The notes beneath the pieces were generated by a model. It had not been told where the DNA came from, made no database searches, and was given only the letters and a program-made list of their open reading frames with translations. From Membranipora membranacea (lineage: Eukaryota; Bryozoa; Gymnolaemata; Cheilostomatida; Membraniporidae): a stretch of DNA of 64,000 bases. Shown here piece after piece: positions 25,201 through 62,112 of the stretch. The stretch is from assembly GCA_914767715.1 (NCBI GenBank), contig OU612067.1, positions 5,642,001-5,706,000 on the forward strand, in the 5' to 3' direction. Each line of letters starts with the position of its first letter. Within the stretch, counting starts at the first letter, position 1. The position numbers and the translations under genes are program-made.

Positions 25201-26665
25201 GCTAGCTGGGCTAGCTGGGCTGGCTGGGCTGGCTGGGCTGGCTGGGCTGGCTGGGCTGGCTGGGCTGGCTGGGCTAGCTGGGCTAGCTGGGCTGGCTGGG
25301 CTGGCTTGGCTGGCTGGGCTGGCTGGGCTGGCTGGGCTGGCTGGGCTGGCTGGGCTGGCTGGGCTGGCTGCGCTGGCTGGGCTAGCTGGGCTAGCTGGGC
25401 TGGCTGGGCTAGCTGGGCTGGCTGGGCTGGCTGGGCTAGCTTGGCTGGCTGGGCTGGCTGGGCTAGCTGGGCTGGCTGGGCTAGCTTGGCTGGCTGGGCT
25501 GGCTGGGCTTGCTCGTCTGAAGGTTACCTCTATGCCGCCCTCTGTTACTGTTTTTTGCTCGTCCTAATAAAAGATGATAATCAAGAGGAATCAAGAGGGT
25601 CTAAATTTGAGACAGAGAAGCTCCTCAGCTTTTCTTTGATTTGAAAGGTTAATCATTAACCTTTCAAATCATTATTTAAAACATGAATGAGTGGAACATC
25701 AAATTTCAATTGTGCTTTGACGACAGACGTACTTTAATTTCATTTCAAAGCCAGTTTGGCAATGGCTTCTTTAACTGCAAGCAAATTTGTCTCGTAATGA
25801 CAACTCCACAACAATAACCTTGACTTTTGTCCAAAAAGTGTACACGATTTTGAGTTGCAACAGCAGGGGTATTAGTGAAGGAATAATAAACATTTAAGTG
25901 ATTCATAAGTATTTGGTCCATGAGTAAATCATTAAAGCTAGGCAGCAACGAACATAATCAGAGCCTCCTCAGACAAGTTAGATCCGGAGATATGTAAGAC
26001 ACATAAATGTAATCTAAATATTATACTTACAGCAAACTCCTCCTCGAAAACCCTAAGGTTCTCCAGTTCATCGTTCAAGTTCATGGTGACACTACTCCTA
26101 CCCAGGTCTCCTACGTGGTCAAGTCCAGCACTGATTTGGATAGTATACTTCATCAAGTCCTAGATGAAAATAAAGTGTGACTGTGTACTTTCTAGTTACA
26201 GTTTTACACAGCAAATCCCAACAAGAGCTGGAATGATATTTCATGTATGTAGTCTATTCAAGGAGTTGGATAGCTCCCTGATGATTTCAAGTTTTAAGTG
26301 CCCGCCCGGAGAAGGAAATTAATTTTTCAGTACTTTTTGAGTGGATTCAAGCCCGCAGACCTACTGCACAAATAACATCCAAGCTCCTGCGATGCACATC
26401 TAAGCAAAGCTTGAAATTTGGATCAGTTGAGAAAACAACCAAGGACAATGCCATAAAGATTCCTATCTTATTTTTCGGTGCCAAAGAACCATCAAATGAT
26501 ATGCAACCAAATCAACAATAATACTAATCGTTCCAGTCTAACAGAACAATTCATGAAGAAGCACAGTACCTGGATAGGAGAGCTGCTCCTCGAACTATCT
26601 TCTACATCAAAGGGTCGGTGCGGATGCGGTATACGGTCACCCTCATCGGGTGAGTCGTACACCAT
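7038..26665 (-). CDS. Large 33-exon gene, uncharacterised Ser/Pro-rich repeat protein with an EF-hand-like loop (predicted 2249 aa)
   Basis: This gene was assembled by reading splice sites on the minus strand from the ATG at 26665 to the TAA at 7038. Each of 33 exons has an AG acceptor and a GT donor (one GC donor), every junction keeps phase, and the exons sum to 6750 nt, exactly 2250 codons. Exon coordinates are given in the block entries that follow. Layout of the protein: residues 1-75 N-terminal exons; about 76-264 Pro-Ala-Ser repeats; 311-893 triplicated exon and heptad repeats; 894-1515 Ser/Pro-rich, low complexity, many SPSP and TPSP pairs; 1516-2249 mixed composition with helices and an EF-hand-like loop near 1987-1998. 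No signal peptide or membrane segment is evident, so it is probably intracellular. The family is not recognised and no function is proposed. Untranslated exons and alternative starts are not resolved. Confidence 0.85.
7256..8934. other. Last intron of the large gene, with a long homopolymeric G run
   Basis: This is the longest intron of the gene (1679 bp). A run of about 14 G lies at 8271-8284 and could form a G-quadruplex or be a sequencing weak point. No nested gene or element is recognised. Confidence 0.5.
8935..10757 (-). CDS. Large gene, exons 27-32, including an EF-hand-like loop (residues 1929-2177)
   Basis: Exon 27 10675-10757, exon 28 10535-10579 (45 nt), exon 29 10326-10453, exon 30 9985-10100, exon 31 9483-9718 and exon 32 8935-9071. 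Exon 29 carries [14 protein letters not shown], matching the EF-hand loop spacing D-x-N-x-D-x-x-x-G-x-x-D, preceded by an ARKILHQV helix, so single-site calcium binding is possible. Exon 29 must end at a GC donor (GGCAG|GCAAGT) to keep phase with exon 30. Exon 31 (79 residues) has [17 protein letters not shown]. Exon 32 contains [19 protein letters not shown]. This block reads as the best candidate for a folded conserved C-terminal domain, of a family I do not know. Confidence 0.78.
10925..11019. repeat. AT-rich hairpin in an intron
   Basis: CACAGAGTAAGGATAT at the left end is the near-perfect inverse of ATATCCTCACTCTGTG at the right end, separated by AT-rich sequence that is itself partly palindromic. 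Its size (95 bp) and termini resemble a small MITE. It lies in the intron between exons 26 and 27. Confidence 0.5.
11349..13163 (-). CDS. Large gene, exons 23-26 (residues 1735-1929)
   Basis: Exon 23 12974-13163 ([16 protein letters not shown], then [20 protein letters not shown]), exon 24 12199-12412 (basic and Ser-rich, [14 protein letters not shown]), exon 25 11746-11823 (Pro/Arg/Cys-rich, [13 protein letters not shown]) and exon 26 11349-11447 ([20 protein letters not shown]). Exon 23 looks helical and hydrophobic but too broken by charges to be a membrane segment. The exon 23/24 junction splits an Ile codon (AT|A), and exons 24-26 are joined in phase 0. Function unknown. Confidence 0.78.
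12651..12726. repeat. 38-bp direct tandem duplication
   Basis: Two identical adjacent 38-bp copies starting AAACAGTATACTGTGACTGA lie in the intron between exons 23 and 24. The absence of differences suggests a recent duplication. Confidence 0.8.
13733..15997 (-). CDS. Large gene, exons 18-22 (residues 1491-1735)
   Basis: Exon 18 15927-15997, exon 19 15445-15621, exon 20 14955-15092, exon 21 14487-14633 and exon 22 13733-13931. Composition changes here from Ser/Pro-rich to that of a folded protein. Exon 19 reads [18 protein letters not shown] and then a Tyr/Ala-rich helix ([18 protein letters not shown]). Exon 22 contains [18 protein letters not shown] and [15 protein letters not shown]. The exon 19 acceptor (15622-15623) has a weak pyrimidine tract and the exon 21 donor is GTTGGT, so these two boundaries are the least certain. 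Phases nevertheless agree on both sides. No family is recognised. Confidence 0.75.
16278..19199 (-). CDS. Large gene, exons 12-17: Ser/Thr-Pro-rich disordered block (residues 1171-1491)
   Basis: Exon 12 19071-19199, exon 13 18154-18258, exon 14 17661-17798, exon 15 17311-17490, exon 16 16780-17004 and exon 17 16278-16460. All are class 1-1 (two bases, whole codons, one base). Exon 16 contains a tandem repeat of about 37 residues: RSP(A/S)PYCQFSPS, then DKASKA, then a Cys-containing DC(D/N)S end. Exon 17 is nearly all TPTP, TPSP and RTP motifs, with an RRRR patch in the middle. No folded domain is recognised. The exons are short and modular, and their number could vary between alleles or isoforms without breaking the frame. 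Confidence 0.8.
19443..20910 (-). CDS. Large gene, exons 9-11 (residues 894-1171)
   Basis: Exon 9 20785-20910, exon 10 20310-20486 and exon 11 19443-19973, all class 1-1. Exon 10 carries GEGEGSP followed by [18 protein letters not shown] and the YYSDDEFSG end. Its AIKxYxxxQVxQPSIE segment is related to the [12 protein letters not shown] segment of exons 6-7 and is the repeated domain of this protein. Exon 9 ends in a shorter related KYQYYQG. Exon 11 begins [12 protein letters not shown] and is a 177-residue Ser/Pro-rich exon with many SPSP, TPSP and SSPSPA pairs, the style of proline-directed kinase targets. Copies of exons 10 and 11 recur on the plus strand in the right half of the window. 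Confidence 0.8.
21332..23670 (-). CDS. Large gene, exons 6-8: tandemly triplicated exon (residues 311-893)
   Basis: Exon 6 23430-23670, exon 7 22863-23144 and exon 8 21332-22558 are paralogous. Exons 7 and 8 share an AAD..A-E-E..PA.IDC.SKVT.TVPTV start. Exons 6 and 7 share DLPPVEQ heptads, then [17 protein letters not shown] and a PSDE(K/Q)ILKYINDQ segment. Exon 8 has a related but diverged end ([18 protein letters not shown]). The introns between them are also similar, including the CTGATAG acceptor and a GTATGTATATG donor, so whole exon-intron units were duplicated. Copy 1 has only 3 heptads and copy 2 has 2, but copy 3 has 48. All have class 1-1 phase, so duplication preserves the frame. 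Confidence 0.8.
21468..22478 (-). repeat. Coding 21-bp minisatellite: 48 VEQDLPP-like heptads in exon 8
   Basis: Forty-eight tandem 7-residue units with consensus EQDLPPV were counted along exon 8, with substitutions such as [21 protein letters not shown] and EQDLLPV. A higher-order period is visible: units 8-14 and 16-22 show the same succession of variants (LQRM, QPPV, LLPV, LPxx, LPPV or LPQV, HHLPPV). The array is uninterrupted in frame. Acidic, Gln/Pro-rich and lacking aromatic residues, it is probably extended and disordered rather than a coiled coil, because Pro occurs in nearly every heptad. The complementary strand is also open, but as an antisense shadow. Confidence 0.9.
24047..26665 (-). 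CDS. Large gene, exons 1-5 (residues 1-310)
   Basis: Exon 1 26570-26665 begins [11 protein letters not shown] and ends in phase 0 at a GTACTG donor. Exon 2 26031-26159 (129 nt, 43 codons) contains the [13 protein letters not shown] core followed by an acidic [12 protein letters not shown] helix, and is the exon most often found as decayed copies on the plus strand. Exon 3 24995-25563 holds the 9-bp minisatellite. Exon 4 24449-24503 (55 nt) and exon 5 24047-24127 (27 codons, [12 protein letters not shown] start) complete the block. The exon 3 acceptor was chosen because only the site at 25563 joins in phase 0 and leads into the stop-free Pro-Ala-Ser frame; the nearer AG site at about 25519 would run into TAG codons within the repeats. 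Confidence 0.8.
25081..25521 (-). repeat. Coding 9-bp minisatellite, about 49 units, encoding (Pro-Ala-Ser)n
   Basis: There are about 49 tandem copies of a 9-bp unit (CTGGCTGGG on the plus strand), with variants carrying AGC for GGC or TTG for TGG. On the coding minus strand the in-frame reading is CCA-GCC-AGC, Pro-Ala-Ser. Because TAG arises in one of the other frames, only the Pro-Ala-Ser and one more frame are open, and only the former continues into the following unique exon sequence ([10 protein letters not shown]). The unit length is a multiple of three, so copy number can change without frameshift. The opposite strand is also open (Trp-Ala-Gly) but is a shadow. Confidence 0.85.
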
Positions 26666-36482: not shown

Positions 36483-36507
36483 GTAAGTATTATATCAAGG
36501 TCACAAT

Positions 36508-37355
36508 GCAAGAAGGAAAAACCTACCATTTTTGGAATAGGTCCTTCTAGTCTGATCTTAATCGCATCTAATTCTTTTGCGTAACGGAACACAGCGGGTA
36601 AAAAATTTTTGTGAACCAGAGCTACTGTAACGCCAAAAGCATCGTTTACAGATACCACTTATCGGTGAGTTTTTTGAGTGGCTGAAATTATTCAGGGCAT
36701 GAATTGCGCTAATTTAAGAAAAGCTTTAGGCTGAAAATATTTATGCGAAAAGGTACACTAATAAGGTTAATATATAATAGCTAAATTTAGAGGGTTGCAC
36801 CAACCGCACTCCCGCGCTCAGCCTCCTGTAAACCTGAAAATATTTAGGCGAAAAAGCACACTAATAAGGTAAATATATAATAGCTAAATTTAGAGGGTCG
36901 AACCAACCGCACTACCGCGCTCAGCCTCCTGTAAAGCTGAAAATGTTTAGGCGAAAAAATACACTAATACGGTAAATATATAATAGGCAAAATTAGAGGG
37001 TCGCACCCGCCGCACTCATGCGCTCAGCCTTCTGAGAGGTTGAAAATATTTAGGCGAAAAAATACGCTAATAGGTAAAAATGTAATAGCCAAATTTAGAG
37101 GGTCGCACCAACCGCACTCGTGCGCTCAGCCTTCTGAGAGGTTGAAAATATTTAGGCAAAAAAATACACTAAGGTTAATATATAATAGCCAAAATTAGAG
37201 GGTTGCACCAACCGCACTTGTGCGCTCAGCCTTCTGAGAGGTTGAAAATATTTAGGCGAAAAAATACACTAAGGTTAATATATAATAGCCAAAATTAGAG
37301 GGTCGCACCCGCTGCACTCATGCGCTCAGCCTTCTGAGAGGTTGAAAATATTTAG
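36508..37355. repeat. Left terminal inverted repeat, 6 tandem subunits
   Basis: The outer 221 bp are unique and about 93% identical by eye to the inverse of the right end. Then follow six units of about 102 bp starting at 36729, each with a GAAAATATTTAGGCG-like start, a CTAAATTTAGAGGGT segment and a GCACTC..GCGCTCAGCC segment. The last unit is cut at TTTAG (37355), directly before an open exon. Confidence 0.9.
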
Positions 37356-40300
37356 ATTGACTCAGCTTTTAAAAAGAGAGTGGTAAGCTTCTACACTGGT
37401 GCTGGCGAAGCTGATAATAATTGTGCCTACAACATGAATTCGGGAATCGTTTTTAGCTCTAACAAGACAATCCCGCCTAATATGGAGAGGTGAGGTTACT
37501 GAACGTTCATGTTAGTACAGCTAGCAGCTATTTGGCTATTTGTCTAATGCCTAGGTGCCTGTTATGATGTCAAAGTGGTTATTAGGCGCCTGTTATGATG
37601 TCAAAGTGGTTATTAGGCCAGGATTAGTCTAATTTCTCAGCCGTTGGTGCCACAACCAAAGCCGATCATGATTCCGATAGGGTTATGTCACAATCCCTAA
37701 ACACATGAGAGAAACTTAGCATATCGTTTTTCCTTCCATCAACAAAGGAGGTGAGCTCTCCGATCAATGGCCTAGCTTGCCCACCCTTACATAGTACAAG
37801 GGTGCGCTAATCAGATGAGATGTATCATGTATCATATCTAATGTAACCATATTCTCATTGGCCCCGAAAGGGGCATTGAATAGGAAAATAAAAAAGTTCA
37901 TTTTTTTTTTAAACCTATATGCCCAACAAGCCACATCTGACAGCTTGTCAGTTTTTCCATTGTAGAGCTGCATTTGAACAATAGCCAATAATAGATATAA
38001 AGCGCTAAATGGTCAAGCTTAGATCCCCAAAAATAGCAAATGATGAAACAGTATTGGCAGAGTAATTAATGCTGAATTGAGGAATACTTATAACTTGTAT
38101 ATATACCTAAGCGTCAATCGTGGTTTTAAAATAGAGACTGCCTTTGGTAATAATCCAGTGAGGGGAGCTTGTTTAAGTTAGTTTGGAACTGAAACAAGTT
38201 GTGCTCGCCTATCTCATTACAGATACGCATCTAAGATGGTAGTTATAGGATTCCAGCTACCAACCATTCTGGCTAAATCGGACGCTGGAATTTCTGATCT
38301 CAATAACCTGCTTCCGGAAGCTAGGAAATGTGCCTGGGGATTTTTACAGGCCATCCCACCAATTCTGCAGGAGTTCACTTCTTTGTCAGCTCAAGATCGG
38401 TGGGCTCTAATAAGGGAAGCAAAAGAAATGCTAGGGGAGAGCACCCAGGAACGGTTGTTGGAGGGCTACGCCTCGCTGGCCTTCTTAATGAAGAGAGTGA
38501 GTCTATCATGGGTCCAGCAATGTTGGGTCTATATCTCTTTGTCATGAACAAGCGAGTTGTTTGAGTAGTTCAGTTAAACGTGTTTAATTTTTGGCCTAGT
38601 ATTAGGGTATGGCTGCATGTCATTTGCTAGGTCAGGCCTTCAAATCTTTAATTTATGTTATTTGTGCTGTACTTCACCATTCTGACTATGATTAAAACCA
38701 GTAAATGTAGGCCACCAGTCAGGTAGCGCAGTTTGGACAACATGAGGGTCATGTTCACAACATGAGGGTCATGTTCACAACATGCGGATCATGTTCACAA
38801 CATGAGGGTCATGTTAAGAAACTCTATCCTGCGTCCTGTTGGAATATGGAAACTGTACCTTTTAGCGCCTGACCATTGAAATTTGTACTAGTCTGGAGTA
38901 GGACAATGTAAATAATAAATTCATAGGTAGTGAATTGATAAAATCATGTCTGGAAGTAGTCTGAGGTGTCATAGAGATGGCCGAAAGGGAAAACCCACGA
39001 ATCATCGGTATAAAAATCGATGTCAATTTAAGGGAGCCCAAAATGCTCAACCCAATAGGTATCAAAATCAGGGTGCTGAGGATATTTCCCTAATCCGAAA
39101 ACATGTCTTTGGAACTTGCCAGGTGGATAACATTTGATAGGTTTTTTTCCTTTGAGAACTACCATAGGTATACATATTATCAATGTACTCAAAATTTGCG
39201 GAGTAGAATAATAGTGGTACAAGGCTGGTGGCAGGGATGGAAAGTATGAGATAATTCGAATGGTTTTGTCCTACATACTTGAAAACTCCCCAAAGGGTTT
39301 ATCAACATACCTGGTATTGCCTGTCCAAGTTTCATGAAAATCCGTCAACCCAAATCTTTGATGCATCCGGATTAAAAATCTCAGTGTGCATTTTACTAAT
39401 ATTGCATAATTATTTAGGAGATTCTTAGCTGTGACATCACGCTTGACATAACGCTCTGACACAATGCAAATTTAGTACACATAATGTCGGATGGCTTGGT
39501 ATATTAATGAAATAAGAGAATTTAGACTAAACTAAAATTTTAAGTGGTCAGAACTAGATTTAAAAATGCATGTTTCGCCATATTTGCTATCCCTGCCACC
39601 AGCCTTGTACCACCATAATAATCTATTACAATAATATATTGATTAGAAATTATTGCTATGTGTCCAGACAGAATAGGCATACCTCTTTCTACGAGACACT
39701 GGGTCTGTAACAATCTATGGAAGAACCCATATATGTCCTATATGTCTAAATACATGAGAAGTTCAAAACATGATACTGGCAAACCCCCCCCCCCCCCCAT
39801 CAGCATCACGATTTTGAAAGCTATCAATTAAGAATTTTAGGCTACCTTAACTTGGCTTGGTTTTTTTCGTATATAATCTTCATTAGATGGTTTTCCTGTT
39901 TTGCGAGCCGTTAATCCGAGATATGGAAAGCAATGGCGTTTGTATGAAATTGGTAGTTGAGTCATTGTGTTAAAATAATTGGATAATTTGTTACAGATAT
40001 TAAAGCTAGGGGGCATCGAAGAGGAAGCAGTGAGCATTAGTGACATATGCTGTGGATTCATCTAGTGCCAATAAGATGTTCCACAGGCTATGGAATGTGT
40101 GAGTGGGTTCATAGACAGTCTACGGGACTCAGATAAACCGGTCAGCATCTCCGTTACAGCACACAAAATTTCTCATGCTTCTAGTTGCACATGATTGCCT
40201 ATCAAACGCTCTATATTGCCAACCATCTCTCCCTATATCCCGGACATGGTATGTTTCATTTAGTGCATCTCTGGCAAAACTGGTAATCCGAGTCCATAGA

Positions 40301-43300
40301 CTTTTAGCATACATAGCCATTAATCTTCGGTCTCAATTGCATACACATCATCCGTGTTGACAGGTCGGCAACGCTTCCTTTAGAAATTATCTGTCAATAT
40401 GTTGGAACAATGAACTTAACCTCCAGGAAGAACAACTGCAGTCACATGACCAATTGAGGTGTGTGCAGTTGGTTCAGAGTTGTCCCCTCAAAAACACACT
40501 CAATTGGAAACATAACTCCATGATAGCCCAAGTTCTTTGGTAGCAATTAGGGGTGGGTTACACTGAATACACTGACTCACTAGAAAATAACCGCAATTCT
40601 GTGAATATGCTTAGTGATGAGGCTTGATGGCCATGGTGTTGACACCAATTATTCTCATAACTGATGGTTTATTTCACTAAACTGAGACATGGGACTATAG
40701 AGAAGATGCTCATTGACAGTTGAGGTGCCATCCTTTTCAGATATACAATGCTTAAACCTCAAAAATAATCCAGAGAAAAGTCATTAAAATGTTAATTTTT
40801 CACTCTATAAATCCTGGAATCTCTATGCAGAACCCTTAATTGATCAATCTAAAAACATGGAGGTATGGACAACTCCCTATTTCCTATAACTCTGTAGGCA
40901 CAGTGTTGCCTGTGCACATCCCTTTTGTGCTGTATCCTGTTTGGAGCAAGAAGCAATAATATAATGGCTCATGAAACACAAACAATATCAGTCTTATTGA
41001 TGTATTACTAATTGCCATCAATACACGACACCACAATATAACAAACTGGCGACGAGGATGAAACACAAGGAGAAGAATTAAAGGCAAGTAAACCTACTGT
41101 ATGCTTGTAAATTGTCTTGGAAATTTCATGCATGGCACTCAGCCTGAAATTTTAATCTCCTAACTAGCATAGATTCAAGCTTGATGTTGCTGTTATGCTA
41201 GGAAATAGGTAGGATTTAGCAAAGGTATAAATTCTAAAACAAGCTAGTGGAGATAGTGAGTGAGTCATGCATGCTTTGTAGGATTTGTGAATTGATTTAG
41301 ACTTGAGATCTCTGTGAGAAGCCATTGCTAGGATTTGAAAACTGTTGAAATCTGCATTAAGCAAGCTTACTCTGTAAAATAGACTCATTACCCTGTATCA
41401 TGGATGCTAGGGGTCCTGAAAAATTCGATCCCGAGGGAGATGCTGCCACTGTTTCTTTAAACTGGAGGGCTTGGGTAGAAGAATTTGAACCTTTTGTTGA
41501 GTTCAAAGGCCTATTTAACTACGCAGATGATAGTGTAAATGAGATAAATCACTCTGATATGAGAAGGCAAAGGCGGGCTGCTTTATTATTTTATGGAGGC
41601 CCTAGGGTTAGGCAAGATCTCCCAAACAAAGGCAATGATGATAATTATGACGCTGCCATTACTGCTCTCAACAGATATTTTACAGTCACCCCAAATAGGA
41701 TTTTCCAACGTCATATGTTTCGTAAAGCCGTGCAAAACCAAAATGAGACAGTAGCACAGTATGTTTCAAGGCTGAGAACAATGACTATAGGTTGCGAATA
41801 TGCCGATGTAGATTCAGAGATCACTGACCAAGTTGTATGTAACTGTTTGTAAAACTCTTTGAGACAAAAATGCCTGAGAAAAGGGGCTACTCTAAATTTG
41901 GAAAGACTACTCATTTTTGCCGCTACTGATGAAGCCGTTGAACAGCAAAACCGCGAAATTACTGGTGCTAGTTCTAGCTCTGTAAACAGAATGGCAAGGG
42001 TAGTAGACATAACAAAGCTTCTAGTGAAAAACTGAAACTTGAGACTAAATCCAATGAATGCTACCGTTGTGGCTCTACTGAGCACTATGGTTCAAATCCA
42101 AAATGTCCAGCCAAAGGTAAGGAATGCCGCAAATGCGGCAAGATGGATCATTTTGAGAAAAAATGTAGGACAGGTGAGGCTAGCAACAAAAGCAGATTTC
42201 AGCCTAAACACCGAGGTAAAAAGGTCAACCAAATCAATCAAAACAGTGACAACTCTGACACATCAGGCGCTGAAAATTCTGAACATGTCTTCACTGTCAA
42301 AAAGTCAGTGAGATACCGGAACCAACCAACCAATCGACTCGGGTAGCGACAGTAATCTGATTGGAAAAGATACCTGGGCAGCCATGAAAAATTCTAAAAT
42401 TCAGTATACTAATGGAAAAAAAAACCTAGATAATTCAAAATGATATGGCTATGCATCAGACAAGCTATTGTCCATTTTAGGCACGTTTGAAGCAAAATTA
42501 GAATTCGGGGGGACTGTTCTTCACTCTGAGTTCACAGTAGTTGATTCCGATGCTGATAATTTGCTCTGCTATGACGATTCTGTTAGTCTAGGTGTGCTAG
42601 TTATCAAAACTGATCAGCCTAATGTCTGTAATAGTGTCGCTCCAATTCTCGATGTCGATTCTCTCTGTAGTGAGTTTAGTGGTCTGTTTTCCGGGCTAGG
42701 TTTGTTGAAGGATCGTGAGATTCAGTTAGAGATTGATCCTAGTGTTAAACCGGTTGCACAACCACATCGTAGAATTCCGTTTGGTTTACGCAAGAAGATT
42801 GAGTCTAAAATCCAGGAGCTGATTGATCTAGATGTCATTGAACAAGTCGAGAAGCCCTCAGATTGGGTGAGTCCTGCTCATATCGTACCAAAACCTAATG
42901 GAGACATACGCCTCACTATTGATATGAGAGAAGCTAACAAAGCTGTGAAGCGTGAAAGACACCCGATACCAACCATGGAAGAAATGCTGCTCGACATGAA
43001 TTAATCTAAAATCTTTAGCAAGTTAGATCTGAAGTGGGGATATCATCAAATCATGCTAGATGAGAAGTCGCGTAATATCACCACATTCTCTACACACATT
43101 GGTCTCTTCAGATATAAGAGGTTGCTATTTGGCGTGAATGCTGCTGTTGAGGTGTATCAACACGAGATTCGGAGAGTAATTCAGGGAATACCAGGCGTAG
43201 CCAACATGAGTGATGACATCATTGTTCATGGTGAGGACAGAGCCCAGCATGATTCCAGACTAAGAATGGTTTTCCAACGTCTACAAGATGCCGGCCTAAC

Positions 43301-46300
43301 ACTCAACCGTGAGAAGTGCAAGTTCGCTCTGCCAGAGATCGAGTTCCTTGGACACAAGCTCTCTGCTAATGGTATTGATCCTGGAGCTGGTAAAGTCGAG
43401 GCTGTACAGAATGCTCGCCAACCAGCTAACGCTGAAGAAGTAAGAAGTTTCCTTGGTCTAGTCACATATCTCTGCAAATTCATACCAAATCTCAAATTCA
43501 AGTTCGGAGTGAAGGAAATCCAGGCATTCAACAAAATCAAGGAAATAATGTCAAATCCCGTCACTCTCGGTTACTTTGATTGTTCTGCTGAAACAAAAGT
43601 TATCGCTGATGCAAGTCCTATAGGACTAGGTGCTGTTCTGATTCAAATACAAAATGGTGTATAGTCGTATTATTTCCTATGCTAATCGTACATTATCTGA
43701 TGTTGAAAGGCGCTATAGCCAAACAGAGAAAGAAGCTTTAGCTCTGGTTTGGGCCTGTGAGCGTTTTGAGTATTATCTCCTAGGTCTAAAATTTGACCTT
43801 GTTACTGATCATCAACCATTGCTGACTATCTATAAGGGTAAAAAGAAATCGAAGCGTACTAGTGCTCGTATCGAAAGATGGGTTCTTAGGCTCCAGCCAT
43901 TCGAGTTCCGTGTTGTTCACATTCCAGGTAAAAACAATATAGCTGATCTGTTGTCTCGTCTAATCAAAACTGATAGTTCTGCCACTTTAACAAAATCTCA
44001 GTTAGAGGACATGGCCTTTATCAGGCATGTTGCTTTGGAGTCAACTCCTCGTGCTCTCACAACCAAACAAATTGAGAGATTCTAGTACAGATTCTGAGTT
44101 ACTTGAGGTTCGCAGATGTGTTCAGTTTGGTGACTGGTCCAAATTCGCTGGTCATAAGATGTATCGAGCTGTCGCTGATGAGTTATGCTGTGTAGGTAAC
44201 GTCCTGCTAAGAGGTAGTCGCATAGTGATCCCAAAATGTTTGAGAACTCAAGTGATAGAACTAGCCCATGAAGGTCATTTGGGTATAGTGGATACAAAAC
44301 AAAACCTAAGGTCTAAAGTCTGGTGGCCAAGCATGGAAAAAGAAGCTGAAAATTACACTCGTTCATGTCATGGATGTCAACTGACAGGCCGTGGGCTAAG
44401 CAAACAGCCTATTCGTTCCACAAAAATTCCTTCTAATCCATGGGAAGATTTAGCTGCTGATTATTTAGGGCCATTGCCTAATGGTGACAACATTCTTGTT
44501 GTTGTAGATTACCACAGTAGATTTTATGAGGTGCGTTTCATGAAAACTATCAATGCTGAGTGTACTATCGCTGCTCTATCTGATATCTTTTTCACACATG
44601 GCCTGCCCAGAACTCTGAAAACTGATAATGCTACTACTTTCACATCAACACAGTTCCGTGATTATTGTGATCATCAGGATATAAAGCATTTGAGAATCAC
44701 TCCTCGATGGCCTCAAGCCAACGGTGAAGTGGAGAGACAGAATTCGTCTCTCATGAAAAGAATTGAGAGAAATGTAACAATATAACAATCCTCCATAACC
44801 ATGTTTCATCATAAACAATTACTCCTAATGATTGCAATTCCATTTTTTACTGATCACTCTCTAATTTCAAGTGACCATTATTTATGCATGCACACCATTT
44901 TTCAATTTTTTGGAATTAGCCAATCAGCAGCCAGCTTGACTATGAGTTGTTCTTCATTGGTTGGAAGCTCACTAAAGTTCAAATGTAGAAACTACAAGTC
45001 TTCCTATCTAAGTATACCAGGAGAATACTAAAGCTGAGATGGTTCCATAAGACTAGCAACAAGGATCTTCTTGAGAAAACCAAGCAACACAAGATGGAGC
45101 ACACTCTGGAAAGTCGAAGATGGCCATATCTGGGGCAAACTTTGAGGAGAATGGATTCGAGCATGGCTGTAAGTCTCGGCTGGGCTCCGGAAGGAAAGAC
45201 ACTGCCAGGAAGACCAAAAGAAACTTGGAGGAGAGTGGTTATGAAGCGATTGAAGACAGTTGGTGTGAAGACCTGGAATGAGGCAGCAGATATAGCGAAA
45301 GATAGGGAGAAGTGGAAAGCAACTGGGAAGCTGTTATGGGAGACGCTATGTGTCACGAGACATTCAGCATCATAAGTCAAGTAAATCAAATGTTCCTCCA
45401 TAAATTTCTAAAACATCAGCTATCTTTCTTCGCCTTCATAATGCACAAACTAGCAGAAGAGTGGTACGAAAGGACTGTACGAGATTGGATTGATTTTGAT
45501 ACATAGACACCCTGTCTATATCACATGACAAATGTTTTATAATGCTGAAATGTTGTTGGGATTTGAACTACGTCGGAAGAACTGTGCTTTTTAACTGTAA
45601 AGAAAATGTTTCCTGAGTGCTTCGGAGAACAAAATATCTGTCTACCCAAGTTTGCTGCCCTCGAGCAGCAGCCGAAGTGCCTACAAAAAGTTGAAAGAGG
45701 CAGTCGGCATGGAGCGCACGAGTAGGCTTTTTGTGGATGGTTAGTAACTACTTGCATCGGTTATCGTATTATGTTCATTGCCCATGCTTTACTAAACCTG
45801 GAGACTGGTTATTAAACCAAGAACATGGAAGAACTGACTTTCGTGACATTTGTGAACCTGGGTGGTAGGAGGGACCGTAGAAAACAGATCCTGAGAGCGT
45901 GTCATGCTTACTTGGTGATCATGTAGTCATGTTAGTTCGCAGTATGCTGTAGTCAATATTTTCACTTAGTCACTTATGAGTCTTTTATATACTATTTATA
46001 TTCATTTGCAGAAGTCAGTGGAAATATGGTTAAGTGCTGCTGCTACAGTCTCGCCAGAGAAACACTGACACAGCAATCTTGGAGTGATCTTGTGCAAGGT
46101 ATGACCAATACAGCCAATTGGAATGAAGATCCTCCCTAATTGAAAGTGTGCAGGCCAGCTATAAATCACTTAATGCTGAAGCTGATTACTTTGACTTATC
46201 AATTTTCTCTGGTCGGTATAAGTACTGTGTGAACTCAGGCTATGCCGGAAGGTCCTGCAACAAAACTCTAAATTGTTAGTTCAACCGAAGAGTCAACTCT

Positions 46301-49300
46301 TTAGTTCAACCAGGTCAAAATCTTTAAACACAGACCACTTGTAAACTTACTCTATGTGTAGCAAATTGTGCTGTGTGAGAGCATTATGGGTATCATGATG
46401 CCACATTCCCAAATATAACTGCAAAATAAGCACAATGTGTAGCTAACATTTTAATAAGGAATGTAAAATTATAACCAAATCAAGATGTGGTAGCATAGGT
46501 TTGTAGTAAGATGAGAATTGAAATAATGTGTGCATAGTAAAATTGCAGGCCGGTATGGTGGAGGGTAACGCCCACCAAACTTGATCTACGTTATTACAGG
46601 TCCCTATCATGTGTTTAGGCTTTGCGACACCCCCCCCCCCCCCACCCAGCAGTGTAATTTTGAAGTCTATCGGTAAATGATTTTGGGTTAGCTCAATGTG
46701 GCTCTGGCTTAGTCGTAAATAATCCTGATTGGTGGGTTTTTCTTTCCAGCATGATTTGCATCTTCTGGCTCAGTGTAGATAAGACCTGGCTGTCGTATGT
46801 CAACTTATTAGCATATGTATGTTATTTGGAGATTGATAAAATCTAGTCATAAGGGTCATGACACAAATCTGACGACCAGTCCAGATACTTAATAGCGAGA
46901 AATATTATGATTGTTATGTTGGACATTATCCTATAGGAGCTCATGGTGATAGATCCGAAGAGAAGGAAACATCCGATGGAGTTGGTGAAGCAAATCGTGG
47001 TATGTATCTGACTACTATAAACTAAACTTGTCTGTTAAAGGATAATCTTGTAAAACCTGGTTAAACTCTGAGGGTAATTAGCTTTGATGCACCCACATTC
47101 AATCATATCTTCTAAACTGGCTACATGTCTATCCTACAGGAATAACCCTTAATCTACGTACTGCTTTACAAGCAAGAGGTTTTCTGGGCGAAGTTATTTG
47201 GAGATACCATCATTTATTAGTTGTCTTCTCATGACACTGTGTCATCAGCGCAAGAGAATACAACTATTACATATAGCAACAATATAAGTTTCTTTTGCCA
47301 TTGTTACATTGGACACTGTCTTTTAGGAGCTGATGATGATGGATCGAACAGTGTCATTGAAGGAAATCAAGGTATGTATCTGACTACCATTAAACTTGTC
47401 TATAAAGGGATAATCTGGTTTATCTCTGGATAACTCCTGATTAAAGCTTTGATGAGGAAATGTTCGTTAACAGTCAGTGTGGGTAATATGAAGTTACAGT
47501 GTACAGGGCTAGCTTTGAGTATACTTGTAGGCCCAAATGCATCATTTATATTGAATTAGTGTTGTTCAAATAATGCGAACAAACGGTTGTAGAATGTGAA
47601 ATTATAACCAAATTAACCTGTGGTAGCATAGGTTTGTAGTAAGATGAGAATTGAAATAATGTTTGCATGGTAAAGTTGCAGGCCGGTATGATGGAGGGTG
47701 AAGCCCACCATACTTGATCTACATTATTACAGGTCCGTATCATGTGTTTAGGGTTTGCGACATACCCCCCCCCCTCCCAGCAGTGTAATTTCGAAATCTA
47801 TCGGTAAATGATTATGGGTTAGCTCAATGTGACTCTGCTTAGTCGTAAATAATCCTGATTGGTGGGTTTTTCCTTCTAGCATGATTTGCATCTTCTGACT
47901 CAGTGTAGATAAGACCTGGTTGTCGGTATGTCAACTTATTAGCATATGTACGTTATTTGGAGATTGATAAAATCTAGTCATAAGGGTCATCACACAAATC
48001 TGACGACCAGGCCAGATACTTAATAGCGAGGAATGTTATGATTGTTATGTAGGAGTTCATGGTGATAGATCCGAAGAAAAGGAAATATACGGCAGAGTTG
48101 GTGAAGCAAATCGTGGTATGTATCTGACTACTTATCCTGTTAGTCCTACTACTACTATATATTCTATCATTTTTACCGTAATCTAGTGGAAAATAAGTAC
48201 GCGCCTTATAGGGGGATGTGACTTTTTAGGGGTGGTGCAGTTCAGCTGGTGGGCACCGTGCCCAAATGCTGAGAACTTTTATAATTAGAATGACTAATGA
48301 CTAATGACACACGCAAATCATCAGGTACATAACAAATATTCGATAGAATCCTGCGTAACTTAAAATTCTGTTTCTAAATAACTGTGTTAGACCTTTCTTG
48401 CATTCCGACCAGCCGTTTGATGTCGGCAAGTACACATTGCGAGTCTAAAATAGACCTGTATCATCGTACTAGATTGAGAGTTTGCTTGAATTCTCATTGG
48501 CCTGTACTCTGTGTCGAATTAACAAAGGTGCTAAGAGTTGCCCCATATTATTTGTGAATGAGATTGACCTTGTTCAATACGCAAATTTTTGAAATATAGG
48601 AGAACAGCTTGACATTTGACATCTACTGAAGCGTTGATCGTCATTATCACTTATCACTCTAATTTATTGTAGGAGCAAGATATGAACTACGAGTGAGAAG
48701 GAGCCAGATTGCAGTAAGTTTTCTTTCTCTCGAATCCCCTGATCCGATTCACTGTATGGCTATTCGCAATTGTACATAGATTTGCAATATGCAGGAACAT
48801 CCTAAAGCCAGGGCCTCTAGTAATATGTGATGAAACAGCCAGGATTGTGTGATATGGTTATGAGATAAATATTGATGAATTATGTGATCTTTCATATGAA
48901 AAACCGCCATCATTTAAGCAAGGAGATTGCCAATCAACAGTTTGAACTTGACATGGTTTATTGAAGCAACTAACGAGCGAGTCAAGCGTTCAAGATAGAG
49001 TTGTCTACTTTCGGAAGCACCAATGCAATGCGGTTTGAGTTTAAAATCATTGTGGACATAGCACTAAGTGACATATTGTGAGATAATTGGCCATAATTAT
49101 ATGGAAAAACTCTAGCATATAAGGATGGCTGATAGCTTCAGTTCCATGACATCAACTTCCCATTCAAAGCTTTTGAACCTAGGCCATACCCAAACGATGG
49201 AAGGAGAAACCCACGAAACGTGACCTCTATATGACAAGTTTCTATCGTGTGTTTAGGGTTCATGACATGCCCCGATCAGCAGCATGATTTTGAAAGCTAT

Positions 49301-49793
49301 CGCTTTGTGATTTTGGGTTAGCTTAACATGGCTTTGGTTTAGTTATTAATCTTCATTGGCAGGTCTTTCCTTCTTGCATACCCAAACACCTGTTTTAGAA
49401 AATGCTGAACGTTGTAATGACTTTGACGACCTATAATGTTGTCCTAAGTATTACATTGAGATCCTAATGTATGCAGTTGGTAGTTATATGTGGCGGCCAG
49501 AATGTAAAATAGCTTCTAAGGTGTACAGGTTATACAAATCTCTACGGATTCACGTTTTGTAATTACTGTTGGCAATATATGTGTGTTAAGTAGAACTGAA
49601 CTACAGTGAACCCTTTCCACCGTGATTCAGTTGATTGTGACGGACAATTTTTCTGTGAATACCAAACAACTTGACATTTGACATGAACGCCTGTTAACCT
49701 GGGCTAGTTGATTTATGAAAAGAGAAGATAGTATATGGATAATTGTTCTTTTAATTTTAGAATGATGCGAAGAAGAGAAGAAGAACCCTTTGA
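37356..49793 (+). CDS. Unrecognised 11-exon gene carried inside the composite element (5' end not found)
   Basis: Eleven exons with AG acceptors and GT donors chain without a phase error to a TGA: 37356-37489, 38223-38496, 39997-40029, 40364-40458, 45651-45739, 46012-46098, 46937-46999, 47327-47371, 48053-48115, 48673-48713 and 49761-49793. They total 957 nt (318 codons plus stop). The first exon (IDSAFKKRVVSFYTGAGEAD) follows a TAG that is both the end of the left TIR and a possible splice acceptor, so the true start lies upstream or the gene is truncated. Exon 2 (91 codons) contains PEARKCAWGFLQAIPP and QDRWALIREAKEML and looks helical. Exons 7-9 are small duplicated exons. The end KKRRRTL is nuclear-signal-like. 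No transposase or known domain is recognised; the short exons make parts of the model tentative. Confidence 0.55.
38737..38816. repeat. 20-bp tandem repeat, 4 copies
   Basis: Four copies of ACAACATGAGGGTCATGTTC, the third with two changes. It lies inside the composite element, in an intron of its gene. Each unit has a partial internal palindrome (AACATGA..TCATGTT). Confidence 0.85.
39214..39614. mobile_element. About 400-bp MITE inside the composite element
   Basis: GGTACAAGGCTGGTGGCAGG at the left is repeated in inverse at the right (CCTGCCACCAGCCTTGTACC). The arms are about 27 bp and the interior is non-coding. It lies in an intron of the carried gene. Confidence 0.7.
39780..39850. repeat. 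C-run dispersed repeat
   Basis: A run of about 16 C followed by CAGCATCACGATTTTGAAAG is related to segments near 46.63, 47.77 and 49.27 kb that share the downstream GTTAGCT..CTTAGT block. It is a dispersed repeat of unknown type. Confidence 0.5.
40893..44784 (+). pseudogene. Ty3/gypsy retrotransposon, decayed and missing its 3' end
   Basis: In order: a putative 5' LTR of about 150 bp (40893-41043, TG..CA); a TGGCGACGAGGATG primer-site-like sequence at about 41047; gag from 41400 (MDARGPEKFDPEG); two zinc knuckles near 42058-42170 (CYRCGSTEH and CRKCGKMDH); protease DSGSDSN near 42340; reverse transcriptase 42680-43560 with NMSDDIIVHG; RNase H near 43700-43960; and integrase 44100-44784 with HHCC, the D, D, E residues and GEVERQN. 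The [I/M]SDD form of the RT motif is usual in K02A2.6-like metazoan gypsy elements, so it is not damage by itself. Several frameshifts and stops divide it. The integrase C-terminus and 3' LTR are absent. It is nested in the intron 40459-45650 of the carried gene. Confidence 0.85.
45000..45375 (+). pseudogene. C-terminal fragment of a LINE ORF2
   Basis: From about 45030: RRILKLRWFHKTSNKDLLEK, then RRWPYLGQTLRRMDSS and GKTLPGRPKETWRRVV, with the usual Trp-rich end. This is the conserved tail of endonuclease-reverse-transcriptase LINEs, plus strand. It follows the truncated gypsy integrase by about 250 bp; its N-terminal parts are missing. Confidence 0.8.
46460..48134. repeat. 1.13-kb tandem duplication with small duplicated exons
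   Basis: 46460-47014 and 47591-48134 are clearly similar throughout, including a GTGGTAGCATAGGTTTGTAG block, a C run, and an exon (46937-46999 and 48053-48115) reading HGDRSEEKE and ending GEANRG. A third, shorter related exon (47327-47371, DDDGSNSVIEGNQG) lies between. All three have class 1-1 phase. A more diverged non-exonic copy of the C-run block is at 49170-49400. Confidence 0.8.
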
Positions 49794-50335
49794 ACTTCAC
49801 ATAACAGGAGCGTTCATTAATACATAAATACATAAATACATGAAAATAAAGCTTATGATCAAATCTGATAAACGTTTATTACTATGACAGCTCACTGTCG
49901 GCCTAGTAATCTGATTTTTAATACTTATCCCTCGCCTTTGCTGCCACATATTATACTCCTCCATACTCTCACATTTTATAGGGACAGGGACCAGAACTAC
50001 CGTTACTTCTTATAGTAATGTAACATAATTGTAATGAGCAGAAGAAATGATTGGAAGTAATTCTGGGACCACTAACCGTTGATAACTGTGATTATGGTTG
50101 AAGTGAAGGAATTTCAGGGACAGTAAAATAGTGGTGCGCTTAGATGATGATGCAACAAGTTTAACCTCTTGAATAAAGCCCAAGAATAATAATGAACTTA
50201 AATTGCCACCCTGCCTGGTCATATTTCTGCTAGCATTGGCAGCCTATTGACAAAAATCTATTTTATGGCTGGACATAGCTTTATAGCTGATATCCATATT
50301 TGCCTGAGATCAATTTTCGGCCACAATGTTTTGAA

Positions 50336-51356
50336 CGCTGAGCGCAGGGGTGCGGTATTGCGACCCTATAATTTAGGCTATTATATATTAACCTTAGTGT
50401 ATTTTTTCGCCTAAATATTTTCAAGTTCTCAGAAGGCTGAGCGCAAGAGTGCGGTTGGTGCGACCCTCTAAATTTGGCTATTATATATTAACCTCAGTAT
50501 ATTTTTTCGCCTAAATATTTTCAACCTCTCAGAAGGCTGAGCGCAAGAGTGCGGTTGGTGCGACCCTCTAAATTTGGCTATTATATATTAACCTCAGTGT
50601 ATTTTTTCGCCTAAATATTTTCAACCTCTCAGAAGGCTGAGCGCAAGAGTGCGGTTGGTGCGACCCTCTAAATTTGGCTATTATATATTAATTAACCTTA
50701 GCGTATTTTTTTGCCTAAATATTTTCAACCTCACAGAAGGCTGAGCGCACAAGTGCGGTTGGTGTGACCCTCTAATTTTGGCTATTAAATGTTAACCTCA
50801 GTGTATTTTTTTGCCTAAATATTTTCAACCTCTCAGAAGGCTGAGCGAACAAGTGCGGTTGGTGCGACCCTCTAAATTTGGCTATTATATATTAACCTCA
50901 GTGTATTTTTTCGCCTAAATATTTTCCACCTCTCAGAAGGCTGAGCGCACGAGTGCGGTTGGTGCGACCCTCTAAATTTAGCTATCACATATTAACCTCA
51001 TTAGTTTACTTTATCGCCTAAATATTTTCAGCTTTACAGGAGGCTGAGCACTGGATTGCGGTTGGTGCAACCCTCTAAATTTAGCTATTATATATTAACC
51101 TTATCAGTGTACATTTTTGCCTAAATATTTTCAGCCTATACCTTTTTTTAAATTAGCGCAATTTATGCCCTGAATAATTTCAGCCACTCAAAAAACTCAC
51201 CGATAAGTGGTATCTGTAAACGATACTTTTGGCGTTACAGTAGCTCTCGCGCACAAAAAAAGTTTACCCGCTGTGTTCCGTTACGCAAAAGAATTAGATG
51301 CGATTAAGATCAGATTAGAAGGACCTATTCCAAAATGGTAGGTTTTTCCTTCTTGC
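50336..51356. repeat. Right terminal inverted repeat, 8 tandem subunits
   Basis: Eight units of 100-105 bp, recognised by CCTAAATATTTTCA starting near 50410, 50510, 50610, 50713, 50813, 50913, 51017 and 51120, are followed by a unique 220-bp end that terminates in CCTTCTTGC. The arm is the reverse complement of the left TIR but has two more units, so the arrays have diverged in copy number. Confidence 0.9.
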
Positions 51357-52017
51357 GGTCACAATTGTGTGTGATACATATCTCCTGATGTATCTCGTCT
51401 GAGGAGGCTCTGATTATGACTTTTGCTGATAAGGATGATTGCCTAGAATGAAGTTAACAGAGAATAGATCAAGATGATTATTCGTATGGGGGGGGGGGGC
51501 AGGTCATAGGGGCACAAATAGTCGGTACAAAGAAGAGAAGGACCTTTGATTGAGATTTGTTTTGTTTAAATACATAGTAGAAAATGATGTAATAAGAAGC
51601 CATATTCATTTCACCGAAATCGGCTTTGAATTGTACTAGGTAAGCTCTGGAATGAAATGACCAGAGTCGAAGATCCAGTGTATGCCCGGCGTAACAGTCA
51701 GGTATCACTGACATTTTGTTGCCACATTTTCAATCTGGACTTACTAAATTCAAAACTCAGATAATTACTTTTGTTCACCATATGCTTCACTTGAATATTT
51801 TATTTGATGAGTACGATATCAGTATATTCAAAAACTTCAATGAAAGAAATAACTTCAAAACGAATGTGTCGCATAAGGACTATTGATGACTCTTTTAAGG
51901 ACAACCCTCTCCCCCAAACACAAGTAGTTATTAAAACACTTGCTCAATATAAATGCGTGCGTGTAGTGTGTAAAGCTGTAACTAGAGAGCACACGACAAC
52001 GCTTTATTTTCACCTAG

Positions 52018-52163
52018 GACCTGATGAAGTACTCAATACAGCTAAGTGCTGGACTTAATCACATAGGGGACCTAGGACGGAGTAGCGTGACCATAAAGAG
52101 TAGTGTACAATGAACTTAGATCAAGAGCCGGATAACCTAAGGGTTTTCCAGGAGGAGTTTGCC
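52018..52163 (+). pseudogene. Copy of exon 2 with a 17-bp internal duplication; downstream intron is the empty site
   Basis: A CACCTAG acceptor is followed by DLMKYSIQLSAGLNHIGDLG, closer to exon 2 than the other copies. A 17-bp duplication near 52105 shifts the frame into TGA. The GTAAGG donor is followed by an intron in which ATTACAATTATG aligns across the insertion point of the 14.85-kb element, uninterrupted. Confidence 0.75.
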
Positions 52164-52405
52164 GTAAGGTTATATTAAGATTACAATTATGTGTCCTACA
52201 TAATATCTCCTGATCTAACTTGTCTGAAGAGGCTCTGACTATGTTCATTCCTGCCATACTTTAATGATTTACTGCACCATGCACTCTTATGCACCAATTG
52301 GATGTTTATATTCCTTTCAATCATACCACTAACTGTTGCAAGTCAAAATCGTGCACATATTTTTTTGGGAAAAAAGTACACAATAACACATCAATTTCAT
52401 CTAAG

Positions 52406-57753: not shown

Positions 57754-57967
57754 TGTTTATACAGTAGTTTGATGTTGTATTTTGGTTTTACCTGAAAAAC
57801 TCACATGTAATTAGGAGTTATGTTCACACTGTTTGTGGAATTATGTTCCCATTGTCTTTTGTGTTCTTTGGTGAAAAAGTCAATTAAAGGATTCTTCTTG
57901 TTCCCTGAAAAGATTCTTGGTGGTTGTGCCTGAAGTATAGTTCTAAAGAAATCCATGACATCCTACA
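57754..57967 (+). repeat. Copia 5' LTR (214 bp)
   Basis: TG..CA termini. It contains an 81-bp segment (57765-57845) that is missing from the 3' LTR. The remaining 133 bp match the 3' LTR except at two adjacent-region positions (GCCTGAAG against GCTTAAAG). Confidence 0.9.
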
Positions 57968-57981
57968 GGTTATGGGCCCAG
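57968..57981 (+). promoter_or_regulatory. Primer-binding site matching the initiator tRNA-Met anticodon arm
   Basis: GGTTATGGGCCCAG directly follows the LTR and is the complement of CTGGGCCCATAACC, the anticodon stem-loop of animal initiator tRNA-Met. This is the half-tRNA priming used by Drosophila copia, not 3'-end priming. Confidence 0.85.
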
Positions 57982-58031
57982 TATCTCTATCCCACTGTGA
58001 CAGAAATATAGCTTAACTTCCAGCAATCAAA

Positions 58032-61000
58032 ATGGAAGAGAAGTGGAGTATAGATAGACTGACTGCTTCTAACTACACTACATGGAAGTTTAAGTTTAAG
58101 CATTTTCTGATAGCTAGAGAACTATATGGCTATGTGGATGGATCAGTTACACAGCCCACTGAAGAGCCAGCCAAGGCAAATTACACCAAGAAACTTAATA
58201 AAGCACTTTCCCTCATAGTGCTTGCAGTGAGTGATGAGTTGCTGTATCTCATCACTGAGTCTGACTCTCCAAAAGCTGCCTGGGAGGCTTTATCGAAACA
58301 TTTTGAGAGAGACACTCTGGCAAATAAGATGTTCCTCAAGAAGCGCTACTTCCGTTCCGTGATGAGTGAGAGTTCAACTATAGAGCAACACCTCAAGTTC
58401 ATTAAAGACTTGACTGATCGTTTAGCGGCGATTAGGGCTCCTATTAGCGAGGAAGATCAGGTGGTTACTCTGTTAGGTTCGCTTCCTGATAGTTATTCAA
58501 CAGTCGTGACCGCTCTCGAGACTCAGCAAGACCCACCTACGCTCGAATTCGATCAACAAGCACTTCTTAATGAGGAACAAAAACGCAGGGAACAAGTATT
58601 ACCGGCTTCGGTCGGCGTCTCTGGTGCCAGGAGTAACAATGCTAATCCTCCTGACACCGCCATGAAGGCTGGTCGCCCCAAACCCAAGTGCTGGGATTGT
58701 GGGAAGGTTGGACATATGCAGAGACAATGTCCAAACCGCAAGCAGCACTCTAACAGTAACAATCACAATAGATCTCAGCACAAAGCCAAACATGTAGCTG
58801 ATGATACAGAGTCTGCTTTTGCTATCAACAATGATGATGGTGAGAATAGTACGAGTCAACGCTGGCTCATAGATTCAGGTGCTACTAAACACATGAAACC
58901 CTATCGGTCACTGTTTACTGACTACCAGGAGTTTGAGAAGCCTGAGAAAGTAGCGATCGCTGACGGTAAGACTGTAAATGCCTTAGGTGTAGGCCGTGTC
59001 ATGGTATCAGTCAGTGCTAACCGTAGTGTAGCTCGTAAATCTACGCTGTATGATGTGTTGTATGTGCCTGATCTCAGTTCTAACCTGTTCTCCGTGAGGG
59101 CAGTAACATCCAGAAATATGACGGTGCAGTTTGGTCATAGTCGCTGCTGGGTTAGAAACAAGTGTAATCAGTTATGTGCTCGGGGCACATTGGTAGATAA
59201 GTTATATTACCTAGATCTGGAGTCGTCTGACCACGCAAATGCCGCTGTAGCTAAATCTGATTCTCTGTGGCACAGTCGTTTAGCACATGTACATGAAGCC
59301 GCTATAAAACGTATGTGTCGTGAAGGGCTTGTGAATGGAGCCGAACTATCTGAGACTAAAGTCGGACTGTGTGAACTGTGTGTGAAGGGTAAGATGAGTC
59401 GTATGCCATTCAAAGCCAGGTCAGAGATCAAGTCTACTAGAGTACTTGAGCTCGTACACACCGATGTGTGCGGGCCCATGAGAACGACGTCGTTAGGTGG
59501 TAGTAGGTATTTTGTCACATTTGTTGTTGATTTTACTAGATATACACATGTTTATTTTTTGCATGATAAATCTGAAGTGTTTTCTAAGTTTCTAGAGTTT
59601 TCTGCTCTTGTATCAAATCAGACAGGTCGATCGATAGGAACGCTGCGTTCAGACGGAGGTGGCGAGTATATATCCAACGAGTTTGAAACTCATCTGAAGT
59701 CATGTGGTATACGTCACGAGATCACTGTACGTTATTCTGCTGAACAGAATGGTGTGGCGGAGAGATATAACAGAACGGTATGTGAAGCTGCCCGTGCTAT
59801 GATTATTGAGTCTAGGCTACCCAAGTTCTTGTGGGCTGAAGCCATAGCCACCGCTGCCTATGTTAGAAATCGTGTGCCCACACGTGCTCACTCAGAACCG
59901 ACCACACCATATGAGCTTTGGCATGGCAGCAAACCTGACATAAGTAATCTCCGAGTATTTGGATGTCTAGCATACTCTCATATTCCTGATCAATTACGTG
60001 GGAAACTAGATGATAAGGCTGAATCAATGTTACACGTTGGATACAGTACCAGGTCCAAAGGCTATCGTCTATATGATATCAAAACTAAGTCTGTTGAAGT
60101 TCGTCGTGATGTTGTATTTGACGAAGCAGTTTGTGGTGTTACCAGTGATGAGTCGTGTCATGTACCAGTTGTCCGCCCTTCGCCGTGTGCAGACAACTCC
60201 AGCTCAAAACTCATCGTTGATCTCGACACCGCCGACGACAGTCACCCTCTAAGACGATCAGAACGCCAACGCCGTGAGCCTGACCGCTACCAGGCTGCAT
60301 CTACAGCTGATCACGTTGCCTGTCACGCTAGTGAGATCATTGAGCCTCAGACCATTGATCAAGTCGAGAACAGCCCACAGAGATCTGAGTGGATCGCAGC
60401 TGCAGAGCGTGAGTATGAAGCTCTTATGAATAATGAGACGTGGTCACTAGTAGAATTACCTCCAGGTCGTAAAAGTGTAGGCTGTAAATGGGTCTTTAAG
60501 GCCAAGTACACCCCTGATGGTAATGTAGATCGCTACAAAGCTCGATTAGTAGCCAAGGGCTATGCTCAGAAAGCAGGTGTGGATTACGATGAGACATATT
60601 CACCTGTTGTTAGCTTTCCATCATTGAGAGCAGTCTTAGCTGAGGCCGTGGATAGAGGCATGCACATTCATCAAATGGATGTTGTGACCGCATTCTTGAA
60701 TGGCAGCCTCGATGAGGACATATATATGGATCAGCCGTCAGGTTTTGTACAGCCAGGAGATGAAAATCTGGTATGCAAACTCAGTAAATCACTATATGGC
60801 CTCAAACAGTCACCACGATGCTGGAACATTGTGTTAGATAACTTTCTCAAATCGTTGAACTTTGTGAACTCCAATGCCGATCAGTGTGTCTATGTGCGTG
60901 AGTTATCTGGCTCTAAGGCTATGATTGCAGTGTACGTCGACGATTTAGTGATTATGACAGATACTGAAGATCAGATGCTTGACATAAAGCAGGCTCTCGC

Positions 61001-61874: not shown

Positions 61875-61979
61875 GTAAACGCGTAACCACATGATGTGAC
61901 GCTCTTATATTACATACATGTACAGTTCGTTTGTATTTCATGTTTCATTTTTATCTTTTATCAAACTAAGTGGGAGTAT

Positions 61980-62112
61980 TGTTTATACAGTTCCCATTGT
62001 CTTTTGTGTTCTTTGGTGAAAAAGTCAATTAAAGGATTCTTCTTGTTCCCTGAAAAGATTCTTGGTGGTTGTGCTTAAAGTATAGTTCTAAAGAAATCCA
62101 TGACATCCTACA
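61980..62112 (+). repeat. Copia 3' LTR (133 bp, short form)
   Basis: Identical in ends to the 5' LTR, but TGTTTATACAG joins directly to TTCCCATTG, so the 81-bp block is lacking. It is followed by the host sequence AAGTATGCAACC. Confidence 0.9.

Follow-up and report, generated by a model that had tools for sequence, protein, structure and literature searches.

A probable Foldback-type transposon carrying a truncated gene in an apparent intron of Membranipora membranacea

Foldback elements, with their long terminal inverted repeats (TIRs) made of tandem subrepeats, are suspected of carrying large DNA. Close precedents for the element described here are Tm1 of root-knot nematodes, a Mutator/Foldback family (PMC3169594), and Ssk-FB4 of Drosophila melanogaster, FB4 being judged Mutator-like by the authors of that work (PMC8277862), and the kind of element is already known. 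The present element, referred to as W, lies in a 64,000-nucleotide stretch of contig OU612067.1 of Membranipora membranacea (the window; positions are counted from its first base), where it occupies 14,849 bp and carries part of a spliced gene. Short members, a gene-bearing element of 15 kb and possibly one of 71.5 kb occur with target duplications in one genome, and such a family lets links between size, tandem TIRs and gene carriage be asked and the mobilising transposase be sought.

With Tm1 the family shares composite TIRs with a variable number of tandem repeats, a spliced transcript unit inside an element (Cg-1 in Tm1), an unrelated transposable element nested in one copy (936 bp in Tm1) and short members resembling miniature inverted-repeat transposable elements (MITEs); target-site duplications (TSDs) of 8-10 bp are given for 45 of 53 complete Tm1 elements (PMC3169594). 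Tm1 differs, as described in that source, in units of ~14 bp (~100 bp here), in a TSD of mostly 9 bp (10 bp here), in outermost motifs that are not inverted, and in some members that encode a Phantom-like transposase, whereas none was found in the copies read here (PMC3169594). Ssk-FB4 is alike in its repetitive TIRs of ~700 bp, its 9-10-bp TSDs, its almost complete captured gene and its several copies with distinct TSDs, the transposase being given as not known in that account (PMC8277862). In contrast, the gene copy in W is 5'-truncated, W measures 14.8 kb and contains retroelement fragments, and the sole sister sharing its exon B has its ends 71.5 kb from each other. The Drosophila Ising TE likewise carries large DNA between foldback elements and differs in being cytologically visible and hundreds of kb long (review, PMC6431247), whereas the 71.5-kb unit is read only from a 9-of-10 TSD and from family interiors at its two ends. 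Rehavkus is similar in its 9-bp TSD, TIR of 26-400 bp, minisatellite before the 3' TIR and relation to Mutator-like elements (MULEs), its transposase having a PHD finger; it differs in that the tandem units of the present family form part of both TIRs (PMC6446971). According to the giant-transposon review, the Pack-MULEs of one early survey were all 7 kb or less (PMC6431247); a survey of 100 animal reference genomes reports no Pack-MULE among them and goes on to describe Ssk-FB4 in fly populations (PMC8277862).

Ends, insertion site and dispersed relatives of W

W spans 36508-51356, with the inverted termini GCAAGAAGGAAAAACC..GGTTTTTCCTTCTTGC, and is bounded on both sides by a perfect 9-bp duplication, exactly as a first-pass annotation of the window had proposed. 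Its TIRs (36508-37355 against 51356-50511, ~850 bp) are 91% identical over 853 aligned positions. Each consists of a ~220-bp outer part and a tandem array of ~100-bp units (~103 bp x 6.2 on the left; ~100 bp x 8.0, 50333-51137, on the right), which bears out their description as Foldback-like. The ends and the corresponding unoccupied sites are as follows.

36499..36507, plus strand: left target-site duplication GGTCACAAT
36508..36727, plus strand: left TIR, outer non-repeated part, terminus GCAAGAAGGAAAAACC (basis includes the alignment of 35 near-full ends)
36728..37355, plus strand: tandem array of the left TIR, 6.2 units of ~103 bp
50333..51356, minus strand: right TIR, made up of the tandem array (x 8.0) followed by the outer part with terminus GGTTTTTCCTTCTTGC
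51357..51365, plus strand: right target-site duplication GGTCACAAT
25953..26189, minus strand: paralogous exon-intron without insertion (empty site), from the joined-flank alignment
51986..52243, plus strand: second paralogous empty site, 70%, from the joined-flank alignment

The flanks of W were joined with a single copy of the 9-mer retained and aligned within the window. The joined flanks agree with 25953-26189 at 180 of 238 positions, the two gaps both lying ~140 bases off the junction, and with 51986-52243 at 183 of 260 positions, with 23 gap positions, some of them near the junction. Both matches cross the junction and, by eye, comprise an exon end, a GTAAG donor and an intron start, which places the insertion point ~16 bases into an apparent intron of a gene repeated within the window. 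The claim that the joined flanks reproduce a paralogous intron is supported. Since an empty site matches the joined flanks, the economical reading of the sequence is that W was inserted as a single unit into this apparent intron; the TSD and the match across the junction uphold the single insertion put forward earlier.

A query of 231 bases (18 flank bases plus the outer TIR) was searched against the genome (339 Mb, 18 contigs) and returned at least 42 matches to the outer end of W. Eleven inverted pairs, W included, were formed by orientation and spacing up to 15 kb; a twelfth (C8) was chosen from the unpaired ends because its flanks matched, and a thirteenth (C5) emerged when the sequence beyond one end was read. 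Among the 42 end matches listed, 24 fall in the first 12 pairs, one in the C5 candidate, and 17 are unpaired. The same TIRs are thus paired at other loci, a recurrence that the first-pass model had called for. TSDs of 9-10 bp were present in 10 of the 13 pairs, nine of them with 10 bp (perfect in L009, L011, L012, L018 and L015/16; one mismatch in L013, L017, L019 and C8) and W with 9 bp, while L010 and L014 sit in C and G homopolymer runs, where a TSD is uninformative. The genome search that had been recommended did recover further copies, but with TSDs mostly of 10 bp and not the 9 bp expected.

When left and right flanks of different pairs were combined as a control (132 combinations from 12 pairs, C5 left out), none matched at 9 bp and two matched at 10 bp with up to two mismatches, both being L012 with L013, which are one insertion at a duplicated locus. 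Family TSDs, at least 42 end matches and this clean control together form a pattern that exceeds chance. The reckoned chance of a flank match of at least 9 of 10 is ~3 in 100,000 for one given pair, and it stays small over a handful of candidate pairs, though the C8 pair was selected by its match. In the alignment of 35 near-full ends, the first 16 bases are each conserved at 95% or more, and the identity between any two ends averages 90.9% (from 72.2 to 100, with duplicated loci counted in).

The pairs span lengths between 364 bp and the 14,849 bp of W, with C8 at 71,510 bp; a 9,985-bp pair and the C8 unit show that large units exist elsewhere, so W is not unique in the large size remarked on earlier. 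Of 11 elements scanned, nine have arrays of ~100-bp units (W, L009-L014, L015/16 and L019), seven of them at both ends, with one array each in L010 and L019. The short members L017 and L018 had no such arrays, and L018 (364 bp) is self-complementary along its length at 78%, i.e. near-palindromic.

Two groups of duplicated ends were also observed. L012, L013 and L022 (C3, 11.78 and 12.26-12.28 Mb) have a nearly identical flank (CCTTCCAAAG or one change) and are apparently duplications of one inserted element. Five left ends on C10 (L032-L036, 8.855-8.940 Mb; unpaired in the tally) have an identical flank, and L032 is 98.7% identical to L034 and L035 over ~5.67 kb; judging from these matches, this is a segmental duplication of an insertion.

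The truncated gene and a putative 71.5-kb sister unit

The gene carried in W comprises the following pieces.

37356..37489, plus strand: 3' part of a truncated exon, fused to the left TIR array with a 2-bp AG at the junction (exon end by eye; the C8 counterpart extends upstream)
38223..38496, plus strand: exon B (MVVIGFQLPT..FLMKR), whose frame across the splice fits the preceding exon by eye
39997..40029, plus strand: candidate next exon (ILKLGGIEEEA), proposed by eye; if real, mostly missing from C8

At 37355 the left TIR array runs directly into mid-exon, the AG being common to both partners. In the C8 counterpart the exon extends upstream of this junction and is preceded by further exon-like open reading frames (ORFs). 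By this comparison the gene in W is 5'-truncated and fused mid-exon to the left TIR, and the whole spliced gene of the first-pass annotation had to be given up. The 87-residue exon B has two genomic matches at E<=0.001, namely W itself and C8 (C8:19724590, 92%). Between the exon pieces of W and those of C8 there are 7 synonymous and 10 non-synonymous differences (0.080 and 0.033 per site, uncorrected), which are too few for selection to be demonstrable. A query of 340 residues from the joined C8 exon-like pieces had no match in the protein collection at E<=0.001, no Pfam family up to E 1 and one PDB match (E 0.8); the C8 ORFs taken singly gave nothing above Pfam cut-offs. A 'P-loop-like' SESSATGKSSA was noted in the carried gene by eye only.

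The C8 unit (C8:19661146-19732655) is 71,510 bp long between family ends, with a TSD of 9 of 10, and was read at 19661146-19669600 and 19687000-19732655, with 19669601-19686999 left out. Window positions 48300-51356 align to it in one piece at 92%, so that the right part is continuous to the terminus in both W and C8. The interior beside the left TIR of C8 (L028 3575-4118) matches the interiors of L009, L014, L016, L023, L024 and L030 at 80-92%; W is without this left interior. Having family interiors at both ends, C8 is supported as one unit. The spliced gene shared with W is found in it, more of that gene being present, along with helicase-like fragments that appear RecQ-like by eye (L043 7612-9264, minus strand, Helicase_C 6.2e-07; L045 1073-5075, plus strand, DEAD and Helicase_C below cut-off), a MADF domain (1.1e-09) and a Harbinger-type DDE_Tnp_4 ORF (8.3e-12), the last probably a nested element. 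Part of the 71.5 kb may have arrived after insertion. ORFs in L028 resembling a reverse transcriptase of long interspersed nuclear elements (LINEs) by eye were dropped when Pfam gave no support, and a suggested resemblance of L044 2965-3726 to DUF6589 was not borne out by Pfam, which returned nothing. The C5 pair was ruled out as a clean sister of W, as its flanks do not match.

Class and origin of W

W is best read as a non-autonomous Foldback-type element, probably of the Mutator class, on the evidence of its ends and those of its relatives: tandem-subrepeat TIRs whose unit number varies between ends and copies, a TSD of 9-10 bp and a near-palindromic short member. Each flank of W is one TIR and not a two-ended element of the kind that bounds a bacterial-style composite; 'composite', as W had been called, thus suits its contents but not its flanks, which are the two ends of one element and not two independent elements. 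Galileo, of the P superfamily, also has repetitive TIRs and has a TSD of 7 bp. Assignment of the present family to some such superfamily outside Mutator is improbable, given that its duplications, 10 bp in nine of 13 pairs and 9 bp in one, lie within the ~8-11 bp expected for MULEs and fit Mutator/Foldback and not Galileo, that a nested MITE with related ends also has a 10-bp TSD, and that MULE transposases are present in the genome. These number 32 matches to the DDE transposase profile PF10551, none of which lies by position within W, C8:19661146-19732655 or any TIR pair; this search took exons singly and might overlook a domain split by introns, and an autonomous member could be located elsewhere in the genome. 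The result would speak for another superfamily, as does the occurrence of Foldback-like TIRs outside Mutator in Galileo (PMC3573991), and the earlier label 'Mutator-like' is borne out by TSD length and left unsupported as to membership. The nested MITE suggests that one transposase might serve several families. The 58 kb at C10:14070494-14128501 contain the three top-ranking MULE transposase matches, which are candidate autonomous partners.

We consider it likely that W is one cut-and-paste insertion of such a non-autonomous transposon into the apparent intron, an internal-deletion relative of a longer gene-bearing element, with transposase supplied in trans. The longer element would be the ancestor, and loss of everything from the left TIR array to mid-exon would have given W, the probable route being a gap repair that was interrupted, or a template switch within the repetitive TIR, at the 2-bp AG microhomology. 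A transposase made elsewhere would recognise the conserved termini and make staggered cuts of 9-10 bp. The retroelement fragments would either have entered W later or have been lost from C8. The same junction of left TIR and mid-exon, with its 2-bp microhomology, could also be left by a fresh Pack-type capture in which an ordinary foldback copied the 3' part of the gene out of a host locus, with C8 as the parental host copy; in the capture proposed for Ssk-FB4, one breakpoint is reported to show a microhomology of 2 bp and the other an insertion of 45 bp (PMC8277862). We regard such a capture as unlikely. W and C8 have in common an unbroken right part that extends through the terminus, and C8 lies between family ends with a 9-of-10 TSD, so the gene was seemingly already in the family; moreover, exon B has no match beyond W and C8, and the genome search found no parent free of transposable elements. 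That the two ends are separate foldback insertions facing each other around a host gene is very improbable: lone ends do exist (17 of 42 listed matches), but the TSD of W is perfect, the 132 mismatched flank pairs gave no match at 9 bp, the interior of W on its right side is family sequence, and the empty site at 25953-26189 is gap-free at the junction, which largely refutes the two-insertion model and led to its rejection.

Several observations count against an origin of W by deletion and single insertion. No outgroup polarises the change from a C8-like form to W, and C8 in its present state is not the exact parent, since W keeps a candidate exon largely missing from C8. The 17 end matches noted above remain unpaired, the C5 candidate pair (~14.3 kb) has differing flanks without a matching TSD, and the TSD of W is 9 bp against 10 bp in nine other pairs. 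TIRs within one element (82.4-96.8% identical, 8 pairs) are hardly closer than TIRs overall (mean 90.9%), so insertions are not datable by them. No transposase was identified in any copy read, a partner not having been sought by its termini, and the assignment to a class is based on the TSD and the form of the TIRs. A bolder extension of the deletion origin is offered tentatively, as somewhat doubtful: C8 would have moved in one piece as a giant foldback element loaded with several genes (the spliced gene it shares with W, the helicase fragments and others), the family would be a giant eukaryotic cargo transposon, and W would be its deletion derivative.

Other interior sequence and the rest of the window

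The remainder of W contains the following features.

40003..45973, plus strand: segment missing from the C8 sister, holding retroelement fragments (from the W-C8 alignment)
40900..44785, plus strand: Ty3/gypsy-type fragment, with RVT_1, RT_RNaseH_2, Integrase_H2C2 and rve in separate ORFs
44989..45375, plus strand: fragment of a LINE-like 3' ORF, judged by eye and without a match in Pfam
46459..48132, plus strand: 559-bp direct duplication (46459-47016 / 47592-48132, 90%) that includes what by eye are small exon-like pieces and is present in C8 and C5 as well
48300..50332, plus strand: right interior, found again in part in many members of the family
49196..49377, plus strand: nested MITE-like repeat of 182 bp, its termini GATGGAAGGAGAAACC..GGTCTTTCCTTCTTGC being related to those of W

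The Ty3/gypsy-type fragment has a short 5' long terminal repeat (LTR) and a primer site by eye, and self-comparison returned no second LTR for it. TTA flanks both sides of 40003-45973, which is compatible with either a gain in W or a loss from C8; the candidate exon starting at 39997, seen by eye, favours loss from C8. The C8 copy of the 559-bp duplication has further overlapping copies. With TIRs masked, parts of the right interior recur in L009, L011, L012, L013, L022, L029 (C8), L030, L032-L035 and L042. The nested MITE-like repeat is flanked by a perfect 10-bp ATACCCAAAC (49186-49195 and 49378-49387), and relatives of this stretch are dispersed in the genome (71-85% matches).

Outside W, a Ty1/copia-type retrotransposon with an open frame of 1285 codons was found at 57845-62112 (plus strand), its LTR stretches (57845-57967 and 61990-62112) differing at 2 of 123 positions. 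Two tracts of tandem repeats, at 21464-22486 and 25072-25513 and with apparent periods of 21 and 9 bases, are free of stops in several frames and possibly represent repetitive proteins or simple repeats.

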